From Halomonas sp. (GTDB lineage: Bacteria > Pseudomonadota > Gammaproteobacteria > Pseudomonadales > Oleiphilaceae), in assembly GCA_007135745.1 (NCBI GenBank), contig SLIH01000130.1, positions 1 to 11,491 of the forward strand: DNA of 11,491 nucleotides, read 5' to 3'. Made by a program: the position numbers and the translations under genes. Under the pieces are notes generated by a model. The model was not told the DNA's origin. It saw only the letters and a program-made list of their open reading frames with translations, and made no database searches. Below are positions 2,458 through 10,658 of this stretch, in pieces. Within the stretch, counting starts at the first letter, position 1. The number at the start of each line of letters is the position of its first letter.

Positions 2458-4383
2458 AACTTCTTCGAACATCAGGACCAGGCGCGCCGGCAGACCACCC
2501 GGTTGATCATACTGTTCAGCCTTGCCGTACTGGCCATATTGGCAGCAGTGAATCTCCTGATTCTGGGGGTAGTCGTCTACGGCGACGTTGAAGCCGGTGC
2601 ACCGCCCCCTGATATGTGGTCGCTGGACTTTATCATGGCCAATCTGGACGTGGTCATGGTCATCTCACTGATTACGGGCGGACTTATTGGCATGGCAAGT
2701 CTTGTGCGCAGCCAGAAGCTCAAGGCCGGTGGCAGCGTTGTCGCCCGGGAGCTGGGCGGAACCCAGGTCGAGCCGGATACCCGCGATCCGCTCAAGCGTC
2801 GCCTGCGCAATGTCGTGGAGGAAGTTGCCATCGCCTCCGGGGTTCCGGTGCCGGACATCTTCGTGCTGGAAGAGGAGATGGGGATCAACGCCTTTGCCGC
2901 CGGCTACTCCACCTCGGACGCGGCGGTGGCGGTCACACGCGGCACCCTGGAAACACTGGATCGGGACGAGCTTCAGGGCGTAATCGCCCACGAGTTCGCT
3001 CACATCGTGAATGGCGATATGCGGCTCAACATCCGACTGATCGGCATTCTGTTCGGCATTCTGGCCCTGGCTCTGGCCGGTCGCCTGCTGATGCACTCGG
3101 GCAGCATGTCCCGCAACCGCAATTCCGGGGGCATTGTCATGGCCGGGCTTGCGATCATGCTCATCGGCTATATCGGCGTGTTTTTCGGGCGCTGGATCAA
3201 GGCCTCGGTGTCTCGTCAGCGCGAGTATCTGGCGGATGCCTCGGCCGTGCAGTTCACCCGGAATCCGGAGGGCATCGGCGGGGCCCTGAAAAAGATTGCC
3301 GCCAACCAATACGGCTCCAAGCTCCAGGCGGACAGTGAACAGGTTGGTCACATGCTGTTTGCCAGCGGGTTCATGGGGCAGATGCTGGCAACCCACCCGC
3401 CGCTGGAAAAGCGCATAAAAGCCATCGATCCGAATTTTCGCATGGAGCAACTGCGCGACGTTCACGAGCAGATGCAACGCCATGACCAATCACGCAAGGC
3501 CGAAGCGGAAAACGAGGAGACCTCGCGCCGTGCACCAGGAGCCATCGGAAGCCTGCTTGACCCGGATCAGCTCATTGAGCGGATCGGGCAGCCCGGTCTG
3601 GGCCAAATCCTGGCGGCCACCCTGCTCGCCCAGTCCATTCCTCGGGCCATGGAACAGGCGGCGCACTCCAGCGAATGGGCGACGGAGCTTGTCTGTGCCC
3701 TTCTCATTTCTGATGATCCGGAGGTCCGTTCGCGCCAACTTTCCATGGTGACGGAGTCTCTGGGCACGGAAAGCGAAAAACAGATACGCAACCTTCTGGA
3801 AGCCGGCAGCGAGCTTGTGCCTGAGCAACGGTTGCCCTTGCTGGAAATGGCCTTTCCCGTCATCCGCCATCTTCCGGCCCCCGAAGTCGACCGTTTGCTG
3901 GCTCTGATTGACCAGTTGGTCCAGGCGGACGGCAAGGTCGACGCCTTTGAATACGCCCTCGCCCGCCTGCTGCGCAAACAGCTCGAGGACAACCGTTATC
4001 CGGAGCGCGCCCGCCCCGGCGGGAAGCGACGGCTCAAGGACTGCCAGCCACAGGTTAACGACCTGCTTCGAATCCTGGCCCACCACGGCCACGAAGACGA
4101 AAACGAGGCGGTAGCGGCCATGACGGCTGGACTGAAGGTGTTGGGACTGAGCCCCGGCGAGACTCACGCGCTGCGCGCAAACTGGCACGAACGGCTGGAC
4201 ACGGCCCTGAAGCAACTGGATGGGCTGCGCATGCAGGATAAAGCGCAACTGCTCCGTGCTCTGATCACCGCCATCCAGCACGCCGGCCAAATCGTACCCT
4301 CGGAAGCCGAGTTGCTGCGGGTAATCTGCGCCTGCCTGCATGTGCCCCTGCCCCCGCTGGACGCGGAGGCAACAGAGGGCTGA
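2455..4383 (+). CDS. HtpX-like M48 family membrane metalloprotease with long C-terminal extension
   Basis: This is a 642-residue inner-membrane zinc protease, probably in quality control of membrane proteins as for HtpX. Two hydrophobic helices lie at about 17-42 and 65-84. The catalytic HEFAH (179-183) sits in VIAHEFAHIVNGD, and the third zinc ligand is probably E257 in RQREYLAD. Two further hydrophobic segments lie between them, at about 194-213 and 226-246, the HtpX layout. HtpX itself is roughly 290 residues; here a predicted soluble, charged, helical region of about 290 residues follows residue 350. Within it, LVQADGKVDAFEYALARLL (about 488-506) resembles the acidic-Asp repeat of TerB-like domains, though that match is weak. 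Translation begins at a GTG with a good ribosome site. The gene lies 52 bp after the dehydrogenase gene and ends 22 bp from the convergent M50 protease gene. The protease call is firm; the role of the extension is unknown. Confidence 0.92.
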   Translation: MNFFEHQDQARRQTTRLIILFSLAVLAILAAVNLLILGVVVYGDVEAGAPPPDMWSLDFIMANLDVVMVISLITGGLIGMASLVRSQKLKAGGSVVARELGGTQVEPDTRDPLKRRLRNVVEEVAIASGVPVPDIFVLEEEMGINAFAAGYSTSDAAVAVTRGTLETLDRDELQGVIAHEFAHIVNGDMRLNIRLIGILFGILALALAGRLLMHSGSMSRNRNSGGIVMAGLAIMLIGYIGVFFGRWIKASVSRQREYLADASAVQFTRNPEGIGGALKKIAANQYGSKLQADSEQVGHMLFASGFMGQMLATHPPLEKRIKAIDPNFRMEQLRDVHEQMQRHDQSRKAEAENEETSRRAPGAIGSLLDPDQLIERIGQPGLGQILAATLLAQSIPRAMEQAAHSSEWATELVCALLISDDPEVRSRQLSMVTESLGTESEKQIRNLLEAGSELVPEQRLPLLEMAFPVIRHLPAPEVDRLLALIDQLVQADGKVDAFEYALARLLRKQLEDNRYPERARPGGKRRLKDCQPQVNDLLRILAHHGHEDENEAVAAMTAGLKVLGLSPGETHALRANWHERLDTALKQLDGLRMQDKAQLLRALITAIQHAGQIVPSEAELLRVICACLHVPLPPLDAEATEG

Positions 4384-4405: not shown

Positions 4406-5530
4406 TCAGCGGCGGTTCAGCTCCATGTGCAACTCGATGGAACGCAGAATCCGTTGACGGTCAATCCAGCCGGACGGACGCTTGTCGTCCATGACCGGAA
4501 TCTGATTCAGATTCTTCTCGTTCATCAGCATCAGTACATCGGTGGCTGGCGTATCGGCCTCCACCGTAATCAACTGATCCAGAGGGGTCATCACGTCCCG
4601 CACCGGAGTGGAAGGCCACTGGTCCCGAGCCATCCTGCGCGCATCACTCAGGCTCACGAGGCCATGAACCTGTCCACGCTCACCCACAAGAGCAGCACGT
4701 TCACCTTTAGGCAACACCTGCTGGTTTACCCATTCCTCAATCGGCGTTTCCGGTGCAACCATTGGCAGCGCGCTATCGGCCAGATCCCGCGCCCGCGTGC
4801 CCGTCAGACGCTCACGCAGGTCATAGCTTCGTCCATGGCCCTCGGCCATGCTCAACAGGAACCAACCGATGAGAATGGCCCATAGCCCCCCGATCAGGTT
4901 TCCAATGACCAGTATGTTCCAAAGGCCCAGCCCGAAAAGCCCGTAGGAGACCAGTCGGCCCCCGGCAACCGCCGCGCGATTCCCCTTGCTGGCATCGCCG
5001 GTGAGTTTCCAGACCAGGGCGCGGAAGACACGTCCACCATCGAGTGGAAAGCCCGGCACCATGTTGAATATGGCCACGACAAGATTGATCACGGCAAGCC
5101 ACCCCAGAGCAACCGAAACCGGTTCCGGAAGCCAGATCGTGAGACCGGAAAGTACGGCAAAAGTCAGCGCCAGAACCAGGCTGACAATGGGGCCGGCGAT
5201 GGCAATCTTGAACTCATCACCGGCGGTTTTCGCTTCGCTGCTCATCTGGGCCATACCCCCGAAGATGAACAGCGTGATGGCTTTGACCGGAATACCGCGC
5301 TTCATGGCAACGAGACTGTGGCCCAGCTCGTGAGCCAGAATGGAGGCAAAAAATGCCAGTGCGGTGACCACAGCCGTGGTAATGGCAACACCCAGCGACC
5401 AGTGGGAGAACTGCTGCTGCAACCCTGTGCTCATGGTGACCACAAGAAGCGCAAAGATAAACAGCCAGCTGACATGAACCTCCAGGCGGATTCCACGAAA
5501 ATGGCCCAGCAATAATACCGATTTAAACAT
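4406..5530 (-). CDS. Site-2 protease family (M50) membrane metalloprotease with two CBS domains
   Basis: This is a 374-residue polytopic intramembrane zinc protease. Hydrophobic helices lie at about 20-35 and 46-65. The catalytic HELGH (67-71) lies in SILAHELGHSLVA, and the conserved second motif NMVPGFPLDGGRVFRAL (156-172) supplies the third ligand D164. Further membrane segments lie at about 108-130, 140-158 and 195-228. After residue 245 come two CBS-like units (about 245-300 and 307-368); the second contains VRDVMTPLDQLITVEADTPA, a classic CBS start. CBS pairs often bind adenosyl ligands and may gate protease activity, an inference here. No PDZ domain is visible, placing it with the SpoIVFB-like/CBS branch rather than RseP. 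ATG at 5530 is preceded by AAGGAA 6 bases away. Length and motifs appear intact; the substrate is unknown. It is transcribed divergently from the methyltransferase-ATPase fusion gene. Confidence 0.94.
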   Translation of the reverse strand: MFKSVLLLGHFRGIRLEVHVSWLFIFALLVVTMSTGLQQQFSHWSLGVAITTAVVTALAFFASILAHELGHSLVAMKRGIPVKAITLFIFGGMAQMSSEAKTAGDEFKIAIAGPIVSLVLALTFAVLSGLTIWLPEPVSVALGWLAVINLVVAIFNMVPGFPLDGGRVFRALVWKLTGDASKGNRAAVAGGRLVSYGLFGLGLWNILVIGNLIGGLWAILIGWFLLSMAEGHGRSYDLRERLTGTRARDLADSALPMVAPETPIEEWVNQQVLPKGERAALVGERGQVHGLVSLSDARRMARDQWPSTPVRDVMTPLDQLITVEADTPATDVLMLMNEKNLNQIPVMDDKRPSGWIDRQRILRSIELHMELNRR

Positions 5531-5588
5531 TCAGAGTTCCTTTTCTCAGCGAATTAAGGCGATCTCCAGCCGTTTCTAGCATATCACT

Positions 5589-5617
5589 TTGACTCTGCTT
5601 TAATTGTTATGGATTAT
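5589..5617 (+). promoter_or_regulatory. Candidate sigma-70 promoter for the fusion ATPase/MoxR pair
   Basis: TTGACT at 5589-5594 and GATTAT at 5612-5617 are separated by 17 bases, matching 5/6 and 4/6 of the sigma-70 consensus. They lie about 80 bp before the GTG start at 5699, in the AT-rich middle of the 168-bp divergent region. I found no convincing matching promoter for the M50 gene on the other strand; TATGCT read on the minus strand at 5583-5578 is the best -10-like hexamer but lacks a -35. Confidence 0.35.
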
Positions 5618-5687
5618 CCGATTTAAAAACCAGTCTGCCGCCGGCCTCCAACTGGCCAGGTACGACAACATCTGACCCATTGGATTT

Positions 5688-5701
5688 CGGAGCAAACAGT
5701 G
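5688..5701 (+). promoter_or_regulatory. Ribosome binding site fixing the GTG start of the fusion gene
   Basis: CGGAG at 5688-5692 lies 6 bases before the GTG at 5699. No nearby in-frame ATG is better placed, and starting here keeps the whole N-terminal methyltransferase-like fold. Confidence 0.6.
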
Positions 5702-7966
5702 AGCAGTAACAATCCAGGAATTCAGGCGGCGCTGGCGGACACTCCGCGAGGGGCATTTATTGCCTCAGCGGACCTGGCCGAGCAGATCTCGGGCCACAGC
5801 ATCCCACCCCGCGCTGTCGTGCAACGCATTCTGAAATTCCTCCCTCCCCTGTCACGGGATCATACACTGCTGTATGTCGGAGCCGGTTCCGGCTATGTGC
5901 CTGCAGTGCTTTCGCGCCTGGTGGAAAAGCTTTATGTGGTGGAGAAAGAGCCTGCCATAGCTGACATTGCGGCAACCAACATGGCCGGCCTGGGCATCGA
6001 GAATGTGGAGCTGATCGTCGCTGATGCCGAGACCGATATCCTCCTCGACGCGCCATGCGACCTGATAATCAGCGGCACCTTCCTGCAGACCCCACAGAAC
6101 CTGCTGCAGTCACTGCGCGAGGCGGGTCAGTTGATCAACCTTGAGCCGGAGAAAGGCAGACCGCCCTCTCTTGTGCAGTACGAAAGGCGGGGCGATCGGC
6201 TGGAACGGATCAAAACTCTCGGCTGGGTTGATTTCCGGCGCAATACGGACGATGTCCTGATTGACCTCGGAGTCGCCGGGGAAGACGTCGTACGCAAAGC
6301 GCGGGAGGAAGCCGTAACCAGTGGCAAGCCGCTGCTGCGCACCCTGCGCAGGATGATCAACTACGAGGAGGCGGACCTCTACCGCCGCCTGGCCGCTCAG
6401 AAACGGGGCGTTTCGTTCATTGAACTGGACAAACTGCTTCCCAGTCTGGACCCACGCCTGTTTGCGGAATTTTCACGCACTTTCCTTGACCGCCATCGGC
6501 TGATTCCTGCCTATTTCCAGGAAAACCAGCTGATGGTCGTCAGCGATGACCCGGACGTTCGTCTGGAAGCCATCGAACGACTGACCACGGCGGATTCGGT
6601 GAATGTACTATTGGTCACCCCAGCCGATTTCCAGCGGCTCTGGTCGCACCTGACCATCACCCAACGAGGCGACATGCTGGCGCGGAATCAGCTGGCGGAA
6701 GTGGAACAGCCGAAGGCAGACGAGGATCTGACAGGCAGCTCCGACACCAGCATCAGCCCCTATCTCGTTTCCATCTACGAGGGCATCCTGCTTGAGGCCG
6801 TTACCAATCAGGCCAGCGATGTGCATATTGAGCGCTACGATGATCGTGTCCGCATCCGTCTGCGCATTGACGGGGAGTTGCGCGACCTCGGTCACTATCG
6901 GCTGACGCCCCGGGAACTGCTCGGGATCGTCAATGTCATCAAGCTCCGGGCCGAGCTCAATATCGCCGAACGGCGACTGCCCCAGGGAGGGCGCTCCAGG
7001 CTGCGCTTTGGGGACTCCTCTTACGACCTTCGGGTCCAGACCCAGCCTTCCCTGCACGGCGAACATGTGGTCATTCGGCTGCTGCGCCAGACCGGTCGTG
7101 CCATGACGATGAAAGAGCTGGGGATGTCCCGCAAGACGGCGGGCCACTACCAACGGCTTTTGAACAACCCCGCCGGCCTGGTCCTTGTTGTGGGCCCCAC
7201 CGGTTCGGGCAAGTCCACCACGCTCTATGCAGGCCTTCAGGAGCTCGCCGACGACGGTTTGCGCAAGGTCATTACCGTGGAAGACCCGATTGAGTATTCC
7301 ATAGACAACATCCAGCAGACCCGCGTCCGTCCCGATATCGGCTTCAGCTTTGCCAACGCAATGCGCGCTTTCGTTCGCCAGGATCCTGACGTCATCCTGG
7401 TCGGTGAGATCCGTGACCAGGAAACTGCCCTGGAAGCCATCCGTGCCTCCCAGACCGGCCATGTCGTGCTCTCCACCCTGCACTGCAACGATGCCGTTGA
7501 TTCACTTCAGCGGCTCTATGACCTGGGAATTCACCCCAACTCCATCGCCAGCGAGTTGCTGGCGGTCATTGCCCAGCGGCTTGCGAAAAGGATCTGTGCG
7601 GAATGTCGTACCGAGGTGGAACCGGATCCCGTCATTATGGCGGAGCTTTTCCCCGAGGGTGCCCCCACGGGCTTCCGTTGCTTTGCGGGCAAGGGTTGCC
7701 CCAGCTGCAACGGCAAAGGCACTCGGGGTCGTGTGGCCGTGATCGAGTACATGCATGTGAACACCGACATCCGCAATGCCATCTCGCGCCAGCCCCCCAT
7801 CGGAGAGATGCGCTGGCTGGCGTTGGATGCGGGACTGAGCACCATGCGCGACAGCGCGCTTGACCATGTCATTGCCGGGACCATACCGCTTTCAGAGCTG
7901 CCCCGTATTCTGCCCGAGGAACGTATGGCACCGGAGACCCGTGGTGGGCGGAGAGAAACCCAATGA
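5699..7966 (+). CDS. PCMT-like methyltransferase fused to a GspE/PilB/MshE-type assembly ATPase
   Basis: This is a 755-residue cytosolic fusion protein. Residues about 10-185 follow the layout of protein-L-isoaspartate O-methyltransferase: LLYVGAGSGY (57-66) is the SAM-binding motif I, VVEKEP (80-85) the acidic end of strand 2, NVELIVADAE (102-111) and APCDLIISG (118-126) the following strands, and SLVQYERRGDRLERI the closing hairpin. The substrate loop normally reading GQTISQP is GHSIPPR here (32-38). Residues about 205-320 resemble a reduced T2SSE N-terminal (MshEN) domain. The ATPase core has Walker A GPTGSGKST (499-507), Asp box VITVEDPIEY (524-533), Walker B DPDVILVGEIRD (562-573), His box ASQTGHVVLSTLHCND (583-598) and a C633xxC636...C667xxC670 zinc knuckle. 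All ATPase motifs look intact. Such ATPases power type IV pili or type II secretion, but no pilin, platform or secretin gene is nearby. Its stop overlaps the MoxR start. Confidence 0.9.
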   Translation: MSSNNPGIQAALADTPRGAFIASADLAEQISGHSIPPRAVVQRILKFLPPLSRDHTLLYVGAGSGYVPAVLSRLVEKLYVVEKEPAIADIAATNMAGLGIENVELIVADAETDILLDAPCDLIISGTFLQTPQNLLQSLREAGQLINLEPEKGRPPSLVQYERRGDRLERIKTLGWVDFRRNTDDVLIDLGVAGEDVVRKAREEAVTSGKPLLRTLRRMINYEEADLYRRLAAQKRGVSFIELDKLLPSLDPRLFAEFSRTFLDRHRLIPAYFQENQLMVVSDDPDVRLEAIERLTTADSVNVLLVTPADFQRLWSHLTITQRGDMLARNQLAEVEQPKADEDLTGSSDTSISPYLVSIYEGILLEAVTNQASDVHIERYDDRVRIRLRIDGELRDLGHYRLTPRELLGIVNVIKLRAELNIAERRLPQGGRSRLRFGDSSYDLRVQTQPSLHGEHVVIRLLRQTGRAMTMKELGMSRKTAGHYQRLLNNPAGLVLVVGPTGSGKSTTLYAGLQELADDGLRKVITVEDPIEYSIDNIQQTRVRPDIGFSFANAMRAFVRQDPDVILVGEIRDQETALEAIRASQTGHVVLSTLHCNDAVDSLQRLYDLGIHPNSIASELLAVIAQRLAKRICAECRTEVEPDPVIMAELFPEGAPTGFRCFAGKGCPSCNGKGTRGRVAVIEYMHVNTDIRNAISRQPPIGEMRWLALDAGLSTMRDSALDHVIAGTIPLSELPRILPEERMAPETRGGRRETQ

Positions 7967-9051
7967 GCAAGTACGAAAACAAGCAACGCCTGCCGGCGGA
8001 AGTGGAATATCAGGAAGAGCTGGAACGCTTGCGACAACTGGACCCACACCCGGTGCCGCCTGGCTGGCGCATGTCCCCGGTAGCGGTGGAGAAGTTCGTC
8101 CAGGGGGACGAAGAACTGGGCATAGAACGCAAATTTGTCTGCGATCCGGAGGTGGTAACACGCGTGGTTATTGCGCTGTGCACCAATCGGGGGTCGCTGC
8201 TGGTGGGTGAGCCCGGTACGGCCAAATCGCTGCTTTCTGAACTGATTGCGGCCGCCGTGTCCGGGGATTCCTCGCTGATGATCCAGGGCGGCGCCGTCAA
8301 CAGCGTCAACCAGCTTCTCTATACCTGGAACGAAGCCCTGCTGCGCCAGCATGGTCCCTGTGCCAAGGCGCTGGTACCCAGCCCCCTGCTGCGCGCCATG
8401 CGCGACGGCAAATTCCTTCGCTTCGAGGAAATCGCCCGCTGCCCCCAGACACTGCAGGATTCCGTTCTTTCCATCCTCTCGGACCGCGTGATCACAATCC
8501 CCGAACTCTCCGGGGATGAAGGCGTCATCTACGCCACGGAGGGCTTCAACATCATTGCCACCTCCAACAGCGTGGATGAAGGCGTCAATCGCATGAGTGC
8601 CGCCCTGAAGCGGCGTATGAATTTCGAGACCGTCAAACCGATCGCGCGGCTCAATGATGAAATCGACGTGGTGGTCCGCCAGACCGATAAGCTCAATGCC
8701 AAGGCCGGGATCAGCCTAAAGCCCGACCCGATGGTGCTGGAAGTCCTGGTGACCGTATTCCATGAACTGCGCAACGGGCAGTCGATAGCCGGACGCAGCA
8801 CGGATCGTCTGGCGGGCGCCGCCATGTCGACGGCCGAGGCAGTTTCAGTCGCCCACGCGCTGAGCGTGCACGCCTTCTACTACGCGGAGGGAAAGATGAC
8901 CATCGACAATCTGGTGCACTTCATTCTGGGCTCTGCGCTCAAAGATAAGCCCGATGACCGTCGTCGGCTGAGACATTACTTTGACACGGAAATCGCTGAG
9001 CGCAGCGGCGACCATTGGGAGGCGCTCTATGGGCAGCGTCATCTTCTCTAG
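7963..9051 (+). CDS. MoxR-family AAA+ ATPase (YehL-like type)
   Basis: This is a 362-residue cytosolic AAA+ ATPase. Residues about 55-230 form the core: Walker A GEPGTAKS (82-89), Walker B-like FLRFEEIAR (151-159) with E155/E156, sensor 1 IIATSNS (197-203), and arginine-finger region AALKRRMNFETV (213-224). The pattern of ALVPSP, a Walker B followed by the QDSVLSILSDRVITIPEL segment, and MSAALKRRMNFE matches the MoxR subgroup containing E. coli YehL. Relatives usually work with a VWA-domain protein on chaperone-like or metal-insertion tasks. No VWA gene follows here, since the next gene is convergent. The ATG at 7963 lies inside the stop of the preceding gene (ATGA, 4-bp overlap), so translation is probably coupled to the methyltransferase-ATPase fusion. 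That makes a joint function likely, for example remodelling of the assembly ATPase or its partners. The function is inferred; the family is firm. Confidence 0.9.
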   Translation: MSKYENKQRLPAEVEYQEELERLRQLDPHPVPPGWRMSPVAVEKFVQGDEELGIERKFVCDPEVVTRVVIALCTNRGSLLVGEPGTAKSLLSELIAAAVSGDSSLMIQGGAVNSVNQLLYTWNEALLRQHGPCAKALVPSPLLRAMRDGKFLRFEEIARCPQTLQDSVLSILSDRVITIPELSGDEGVIYATEGFNIIATSNSVDEGVNRMSAALKRRMNFETVKPIARLNDEIDVVVRQTDKLNAKAGISLKPDPMVLEVLVTVFHELRNGQSIAGRSTDRLAGAAMSTAEAVSVAHALSVHAFYYAEGKMTIDNLVHFILGSALKDKPDDRRRLRHYFDTEIAERSGDHWEALYGQRHLL

Positions 9052-9059
9052 AGAAGGAT

Positions 9060-10658
9060 TCAACCGCCGGGCATGGGCGATTCCACGGAGAGGAGAATCT
9101 GGTAGCTGTCCAGCCCGCCCCTTTCGTCGCGGGTAACCCGTGTCTGATCGGCGCTGACGCTGAGGTTCAGGTCCATCCCCGGCCACTGATGTACCGGTGC
9201 GAAGGCCTTCCAATGTAACTCCCCTGATATGTGACGCCTACCGTCGTTGCGGGCAAGCAGAGGATCCGTGACGCCCCGGGTGCGGTTAAACTCAACCTTC
9301 TGGCGCCAGGAAAGCTGCTCGGGGATAAGCCAGGCATCCGCCGTGAATCCGAAGAAGCTGTGATAGGCAATAACATCGCGGTCCGGGCGCCTCTCCCGCT
9401 GCAGCTGTCCGGATGGCTGAATCCACAGGCGATCCGACAGCGTCAGTGTCGCATCCGCGAAGACCTCATCAGCGCGCGTGTCCAGAGGCGAATACTCGCG
9501 CCCGCGGCACTCACTGGCACTGTACCCCAGGGACAGGCTTCCAAGCGGATTGGCAAACCGGGAGGCCAGAGTGAGCTCATGCTTCACTCGATCGCGCGGT
9601 GTGTACATGGGTCGATCACTGAGGTCATCGGTGACCACCCGGGTCAGCCCCAGATCATAGATGGGCGATTCCAGCCACCGTGTCCCGAAGAATTCGGGCG
9701 CCTGGTAATTCAGGTTGACCTGGTGCTCCGTATGACGCGCCGCGGGGAGCATATCGCGCCGCGAGGTATTTTCCTCGCGAACGCCGACGCTACCATCAAC
9801 AGCCCAGCGTCCAGCCGCCAGACGGCTGAACACCCGATCCATCGACTGATCCCGGACCAGGGGTTGATTACCTGGACTGCGATAGTCGGAGCCAACATCC
9901 GTGGTTTCAGCGCCCAACCGCCAATCCAAAGGAAAACGCCCCAAATCGGGATCAAAGGTCAACGCTGCCCGGTAGGCGCCGTCTGTGATTCGGCCTGTCT
10001 CTTCCCTACCAGCCGAGAAACGCGTTATCGCCTTCTCCATGTCCAGCTGCAACCGATCGTCCCACCAGACCGAATCAACCCCGACGGAATAACCCGTGCT
10101 CTGTCCCGGGCGCCGGCCATCCGATAGAGCCCCACCCTGGAATCGGCCACTGATGTAACCCGCTGAAACACTCATGTCGGACCATCGCGTATCGAAACGC
10201 GAGCGCCAGATGCCTCCCGCGTAGCCCCCATGGCCTTCGGCGACATCTTCTGCCGAGCCCTGAATGCCAAAGACCGAGAGATCACTGTTGAAGGCGTCCA
10301 GTTGAGCGTCAGCGGACAGGCCCCGGTGGGACTTGCCGTCAAACAGCAAGCCTTTTTCTGTCGGTTGGTGGTTGCCCAGGCGGAAGTCCAGCCGGTCGCC
10401 TTCGCCGGTAAACAGGAACGAATCCAGAGCCGCCCCCTGCCCCGATTCGTCAAAGCCAGTCTCCTGCTCAACCGTCGCATCAAGATCGAGCTCAAACTGC
10501 CAGTGCTCAAGACCCGCTATCCCCAGCTCGCTTCCGGCAAAGCGTGTCTGAACGTCACGCTGTTCGGTGACCGGACCGGCATCAAGGGCCGCCTGCACGG
10601 AGGGCAGACAGAATCCGTAAATCAGCAGCGTCAGCGGCAACCAGGAGGACAGTTTCAT
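9060..10658 (-). CDS. Signal-peptide-bearing, beta-rich, probably outer-membrane protein of unknown function
   Basis: This is a 532-residue exported protein. The first 23-24 residues are a Sec signal peptide: MKLS, a hydrophobic core SWLPLTLLIYGFCLP, then SVQA-A as the likely cleavage site. The rest has no long hydrophobic helix and consists of alternating polar/hydrophobic stretches with many aromatics and Gly turns, as in RLDFRLGNHQPTEKGLLFDG and DLSVFGIQG, typical of a beta-barrel. The mature part has a single Cys, so it is not an MtrB-like CXXC porin. It does not end in the usual terminal aromatic, so a barrel is likely but not certain. I cannot assign a family. The start is chosen because the signal peptide begins there, although the ribosome site is weak. 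It is convergent with the MoxR gene, 8 bp apart. A link to the fusion ATPase is possible from position only. Confidence 0.8.
   Translation of the reverse strand: MKLSSWLPLTLLIYGFCLPSVQAALDAGPVTEQRDVQTRFAGSELGIAGLEHWQFELDLDATVEQETGFDESGQGAALDSFLFTGEGDRLDFRLGNHQPTEKGLLFDGKSHRGLSADAQLDAFNSDLSVFGIQGSAEDVAEGHGGYAGGIWRSRFDTRWSDMSVSAGYISGRFQGGALSDGRRPGQSTGYSVGVDSVWWDDRLQLDMEKAITRFSAGREETGRITDGAYRAALTFDPDLGRFPLDWRLGAETTDVGSDYRSPGNQPLVRDQSMDRVFSRLAAGRWAVDGSVGVREENTSRRDMLPAARHTEHQVNLNYQAPEFFGTRWLESPIYDLGLTRVVTDDLSDRPMYTPRDRVKHELTLASRFANPLGSLSLGYSASECRGREYSPLDTRADEVFADATLTLSDRLWIQPSGQLQRERRPDRDVIAYHSFFGFTADAWLIPEQLSWRQKVEFNRTRGVTDPLLARNDGRRHISGELHWKAFAPVHQWPGMDLNLSVSADQTRVTRDERGGLDSYQILLSVESPMPGG

Follow-up and report, generated by a model that had tools for sequence, protein, structure and literature searches.

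An 11,491-nucleotide contig of a Halomonas sp. assembly (SLIH01000130.1 of GCA_007135745.1, analyzed over its whole length and called the window below) encodes a 755-residue fusion protein in which a methyltransferase fold of the PIMT (PCMT) type is joined to an MshEN domain and a GspE/PilB-type ATPase core (T2SSE), followed directly by a gene for a MoxR-type AAA+ ATPase. The fusion gene nearly always occurs with the MoxR gene. This pairing suggests a two-gene machine that has not been described, and no other hint at function is as strong as the MoxR partner. On computational evidence, we give a probability of roughly one half to a two-gene module in which an orphan motor of the GspE/PilB superfamily carries a pseudo-PIMT domain for regulation or docking and works with MoxR. 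A literature search, with most subscription literature beyond its reach, found no published description of a PIMT-fold/MshEN/T2SSE fusion, in line with an earlier interpretation of the window from its letters alone (the sequence-only reading), which knew of no characterized protein of this architecture.

The fusion is a genuine gene with an added N-terminal domain

PCMT, MshEN and T2SSE each score above their curated Pfam cut-offs in the fusion (Table 1). The methyltransferase fold sits ahead of N1/MshEN as an addition and not as a replacement. The sequence-only reading had implied that it stands in the stead of N1, which is wrong since MshEN is still present at residues 239-323, while its other architectural claims hold: a profile search of the N-terminal part matches PCMT at residues 9-177, the fusion of methyltransferase fold and ATPase is real, and the same domain order recurs across genomes, more widely than that reading could have known. 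A contig scan using six short peptide patterns, which does not amount to a census, yielded 64 related loci, in 62 of which the whole fusion lies in one open frame. The two exceptions are a Marinobacter flavimaris locus with a disrupted frame (L057, 6001-8250), where the adjacent MoxR gene is still there, and a locus cut by a contig end (L097). Within the genus Marinobacter, 63/120 genomes carry the fusion once each at E 1e-110, all matches spanning residues 3-11 to 752-755, with stop codons in the matched frame in three of the 63 carriers. Because the single frame recurs in these loci and genomes, we reject an artefact of assembly or gene splitting; the division into two genes that a corrected assembly might have revealed, as the sequence-only reading had cautioned, is not seen.

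The fusion and MoxR form a cassette that is gained and lost as a unit

The MoxR gene, not mentioned in the sequence-only reading, encodes a member of the MoxR AAA+ ATPases (AAA_5, 99 bits against a cut-off of 22) whose alignment contains GEPGTAKS and FEE stretches as Walker A and Walker B motifs. It lies directly downstream of the fusion in 64/65 loci, the window included; clustering of open reading frames (ORFs) accounts for 57/65 and tblastn adds seven of the other eight, three of these seven being cut by contig ends. The overlap between the two genes is exactly 4 bases in 44 of 57 measured pairs. Genes flanking the pair vary by genus, and in many Marinobacter loci the pair is found between a DUF2802 gene and a 99-residue ORF, a FliK-like gene and ccmABC. 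Six of the 57 Marinobacter genomes without a match were taken for comparison of this site. All six have an empty site, with fewer than 100 bases between the DUF2802 gene and the 99-residue ORF and no match to fusion or MoxR, indicating that both genes are gained or lost jointly.

Carriers identified in the contig scan comprise Marinobacter, Wenzhouxiangella, Alishewanella, Alkalimonas, Rheinheimera, Halopseudomonas and Parahaliea together with a Porticoccaceae and a Myxococcales metagenome-assembled genome and others. In a class-wide set of 369 genomes, a profile of the methyltransferase domain found matches at <=1e-80 in only two, the window's own and G384, whose locus was confirmed as a fusion with MoxR; best matches in the rest are 1e-36 or weaker, a range in which a very divergent fusion could hide. 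The fusion is absent from 4/4 congeners of the window's genome, and G024 is the sole carrier among 20 family genomes drawn. Overall, the fusion looks rare outside Marinobacter. Neither a phage nor a plasmid origin is supported: none of seven pattern-matching stretches in viral contigs encodes a relative, in a scan that covers close relatives only, and no single place in the best 5000 plasmid records covers 80% of the query, the 10 plasmid matches listed all beginning at residue 163 or later.

The motor core forms its own clade

The ATPase core belongs to the T2SSE superfamily (365 bits against a Pfam cut-off of 24.9) and possesses the Walker motifs and Cys knuckle, the motor motifs that had been read from the window alone and that prove near-invariant in 30 aligned rows. 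It falls short of the equivalog models for GspE (NCBIfam TIGR02533, 419.5 against 630.25) and PilB (NCBIfam TIGR02538, 413.5 against 675.65), whereas the same models pass GspE of the window's own genome (L002, 710) and PilB of the relative G005 (L011, 855). In a 52-row tree that excludes loci L003-L006 and L008, and for which the tool warned of long branches meeting, 15 fusion ATPase cores form one group with support of 100/100 and a stem of 2.16 changes per site. A branch with 99/99 support likewise has the methyltransferase domains of 20 fusions all on one side, consistent with a single fusion event. Like GspE, PilB and MshE (T2SSE, PF00437), the fusion combines the core fold and its motifs with a four-Cys knuckle and an MshEN domain ahead of the core; unlike them, it has an extra PIMT-fold domain, equivalog scores below cut-off, a clade of its own and no platform gene among the neighbors scanned. 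In this tree the fusion motor thus stands as a clade separate from the GspE, PilB and receiver-domain motors included in the comparison. No unfused members of this clade were seen, and no further search was aimed at them. For the 120 genomes of the genus Marinobacter, all matches listed at E <=1e-110 begin at residues 3-11, and in 38 relatives the window and G024 represent the only matches at this level among the matches listed.

Two receiver-MshEN-T2SSE motors (L101 and L103, 748 and 745 residues) resemble the fusion in combining an input domain with MshEN and T2SSE. They differ in carrying a receiver domain in place of the PIMT fold, in belonging to a separate clade and in having no MoxR match in either locus. 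This identical layout with another input domain suggests that N-terminal input domains have been exchanged on the motor. The receiver-domain motors are not supported as the nearest sister, given the separate long-stem clades and the long-branch warning. The L101 motor (4843-8354, minus strand) adjoins a histidine kinase gene, two motors of similar length (L106 and L108) fall in the same clade as the receiver-type motors, and a further input-domain variant joins a STAS-like domain (E 3e-5) to MshEN and T2SSE (L102, 4004-6055, plus strand).

The PIMT fold has lost the repair signature

Profile and fold matches assign the N-terminal domain to the PCMT/PIMT fold, while its scores for the PIMT family models lie below cut-off (TIGR00080, 47.8 against 159; PRK00312, 62.8 against 188). 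Residues were counted in an alignment of 63 fusions with 29 comparison PCMT domains. Position 36, the isoaspartate-binding Ser, is Pro in 63/63 fusions and Ser/Thr in 29/29 comparison domains; the motif-I acid at position 59 is absent in 63/63 and Glu/Asp in 29/29; position 33 is His/Arg in 63/63 (Arg in 20) and Gln in 29/29; and the segment ahead of the substrate loop is about 8 residues shorter in the fusions. The domain shares with Pcm/PIMT the fold, the GxGxGY loop and the acid at position 82 but not the QTIS loop, the motif-I acid or a constant Asp-Gly contact to S-adenosylmethionine (SAM). The glycine motif that the sequence-only reading described as intact is confirmed, with G61, G63 and G65 in 63/63 fusions, Y66 in 62/63 and Glu/Asp at position 82 in 63/63, while the Asp-Gly contact at positions 109-110 is variable (Asp 35/63, Gly 18/63). 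Losses of the same kind are described in PMC11522691 for a dead PIMT of Paracoccus complex I (CI-PIMT), which differs from the fusion domain in being a separate supernumerary subunit of a respiratory enzyme that is unfused to an ATPase. The fusion domain does not look like a normal isoaspartate repair enzyme and its repair chemistry appears to be lost. It is nonetheless under purifying selection, with a ratio of nonsynonymous to synonymous substitution rates (dN/dS) of <=0.21 in 13/13 pairs, some of these values being rough and dS near or above 1 in many.

The non-methylating domain may still bind SAM or S-adenosylhomocysteine (SAH), in which case methyl-cycle status and not cyclic di-GMP (c-di-GMP) would gate the motor, a reading that we regard as possible but tentative. 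The conserved glycine loop and acid 82 and the purifying selection are in its favor, as is the MshEN region, where the relaxed form of the 24-residue c-di-GMP motif given in PMC5013675 is missing from the N-terminal part of 63/63 fusions, so that by this motif they do not qualify as MshEN c-di-GMP receptors. This absence is only weakly informative because it is common among comparison motors: the relaxed motif is present in 8/42 and absent in 34/42, a set that includes one fusion (L008), a fragment and retraction-type ATPases, and the same source allows that perfect conservation of the motif may not be required. The variable positions 109-110 and the missing motif-I acid argue against a cofactor, and so does the comparison with CI-PIMT, which retains a similar glycine loop yet shows no cofactor density and has an Arg59 that obstructs the cofactor (PMC11522691); in our alignment this residue corresponds to position 33, the Arg found in 20/63 fusions. 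Sequence signs are thus mixed, and SAM binding by the domain, along with the coupling of the motor to SAM that the sequence-only reading had put forward, is possible. A doubtful, more far-reaching version holds that a SAM/SAH-reading pseudo-methyltransferase replaced the c-di-GMP input and that a dedicated MoxR ring loads or strips the motor, forming a movable two-gene plug-in. Such a plug-in, if real, would let the state of the methyl cycle control an envelope machine that the cell already has.

We consider it unlikely that the domain is a working methyltransferase that acts on a new substrate, such as a pilin, a platform protein or MoxR, whose methylation would be part of the working cycle. 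Loss of the motif-I acid in all fusions, the variable position 109 and the shortened substrate segment speak against it, as does the lower mean column conservation of the domain compared with the motor (0.58 versus 0.85).

A proposed two-gene mechanism and the platform it may use

In the favored module, the first gene would supply a motor whose N-terminal PIMT fold, with isoaspartate methylation lost, precedes an MshEN domain devoid of the c-di-GMP motif, and the second a translationally coupled MoxR AAA+ ring. The motor would be a hexamer that borrows an existing inner-membrane platform of a type IV pilus or type II secretion system, the pseudo-PIMT crown would bind a protein partner or else a nucleoside ligand and so decide when the motor engages, and MoxR would load, remodel or release the motor. 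A dedicated platform would predict extra GspF/PilC genes in carriers. Counting halved matches to PF00482 in genomes at least 90% complete, we obtained 3.19 copies per genome for carriers (60 genomes) and 3.11 for non-carriers (48 genomes, two of them with 6% contamination; Mann-Whitney p 0.57). With no such excess, a dedicated platform is not supported and the motor probably shares an existing platform or uses none.

Several observations weigh against this module. The 20 neighbor proteins scanned at eight loci include no pilin, GspF or GspL, and none is encoded in the window, so that it is the ATPase family that provides the link to pili or secretion. A Myxococcota locus (L093) has no MoxR gene in the locus or in the genome record. 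A pure docking domain has no obvious need for the strictly conserved glycines and acid 82, and the domain may therefore bind a ligand or have altered catalysis. The full-length structure model has a predicted template-modeling score of 0.42, too low to place the domains relative to each other, and its domain arrangement was not used. In addition, Myxococcus PilB has been reported as a signaling protein (PMC5544727), and a non-motor role of the fusion is accordingly also possible.

A signaling or conflict device, in which the two ATPase rings act as a switch and are gained and lost like a defense cassette, would fit the patchy distribution in Marinobacter and the empty sites, and the three MoxR proteins closest to the window's among the relatives searched (L151-L153; 50% identity with L151, about 37% with L152 and L153) are encoded next to DUF5682 genes, with a VWA_CoxE gene also at L151 and L152, the two of these loci scanned for it. 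Unlike these loci, the window has no DUF5682 or VWA gene and its MoxR partner is the motor gene. No VWA_CoxE gene is found in the window's own genome (68% complete); within the neighbor proteins scanned at eight loci, a VWA gene occurs near L082, and cluster mates of it lie near L080 and L087. Fusion residues 31-147 (5789-6139) match the PADLOC model mad2 of the MADS defense system (E 1.3e-16), a match that may well reflect only the common PCMT-like fold, and the MoxR product matches no PADLOC model. The Marinobacter cassette scanned at L039 is located among chemotaxis, flagellar and cytochrome-maturation genes. The main text of a paper on MoxR-VWA conflict systems (PMC7159879) does not contain the terms pilus, PilB, type II secretion, isoaspartyl or isoaspartate. 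Taken together, a conflict device seems quite improbable.

Finally, the damage sensor or repair-linked motor recognizing isoaspartyl proteins that the sequence-only reading had proposed has its homology to PIMT in its favor and is very hard to maintain, given the uniform Ser-to-Pro change, the shortened segment before the loop, the loss of Drosophila PIMT activity upon S62A (as cited in PMC11522691) and the presence in the window's own genome of a stand-alone PCMT that has the usual motifs (C290, L007).

If correct, the two-gene module would show that the input domain at the N-terminus of assembly motors can be swapped, a dead repair enzyme being among the domains recruited, and that a GspE/PilB-type motor can have a MoxR AAA+ ring of its own. 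With carriers and non-carriers of a compact two-gene cassette in one marine genus, the use of such an orphan motor is directly testable.

Features of the window and neighboring genes

Table 1. Positions of the fusion gene, its domains and motifs, and the MoxR gene in the window
Feature	Position	Strand	Basis or remark
Shine-Dalgarno-like GGAG, 6 nt ahead of the fusion's GTG	5689..5692	+	read from sequence
PCMT-MshEN-T2SSE fusion gene, 755 aa, GTG start	5699..7966	+	uninterrupted ORF; full-length relatives
PIMT-fold (PCMT) domain, residues 9-177	5723..6229	+	Pfam
G32-H-S-I-P36, where PIMT has the (G)QTIS substrate loop	5792..5806	+	P36 in 63/63
SAM-type glycine loop G61-A-G-S-G-Y66	5879..5896	+	residue 59, two ahead, acidic in 0/63
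Helical segment, residues 181-235, where MshEN has its helical half	6239..6403	+	model helices 183-233; no c-di-GMP motif
MshEN domain (Pfam part), residues 239-323	6413..6667	+	Pfam E 7e-9
GspE/PilB-type ATPase core (T2SSE), residues 360-734	6776..7900	+	Pfam E 3.6e-109; own clade 100/100
Walker A GPTGSGKST, residues 499-507	7193..7219	+	invariant save S506 (>=90%) in 30 rows
Four-Cys zinc knuckle C633, C636, C667, C670	7595..7708	+	invariant in 30 rows
MoxR-type AAA+ ATPase (AAA_5), 362 aa; ATG overlaps fusion stop by 4 bases	7963..9051	+	Pfam AAA_5 E 3e-28

No RNA elements were found in the window at gathering scores. Upstream of the fusion gene, the window encodes an HtpX-like M48 protease with a long, weakly TerB-like C-terminal region (2458-4383, plus strand) and, divergent from the fusion gene, a site-2-type M50 protease with a CBS domain (4406-5530, minus strand). 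Convergent with the MoxR gene is a gene for a 532-residue protein that, at the limits applied, matches no Pfam or NCBIfam family (9060-10658, minus strand). PCMT domains are also fused to erythromycin-esterase-like domains in proteins of 667 and 710 residues from two genomes of one family (L117, 133-2265, minus strand; L126, 1426-3429, plus strand), and a similar long frame is present at L128.
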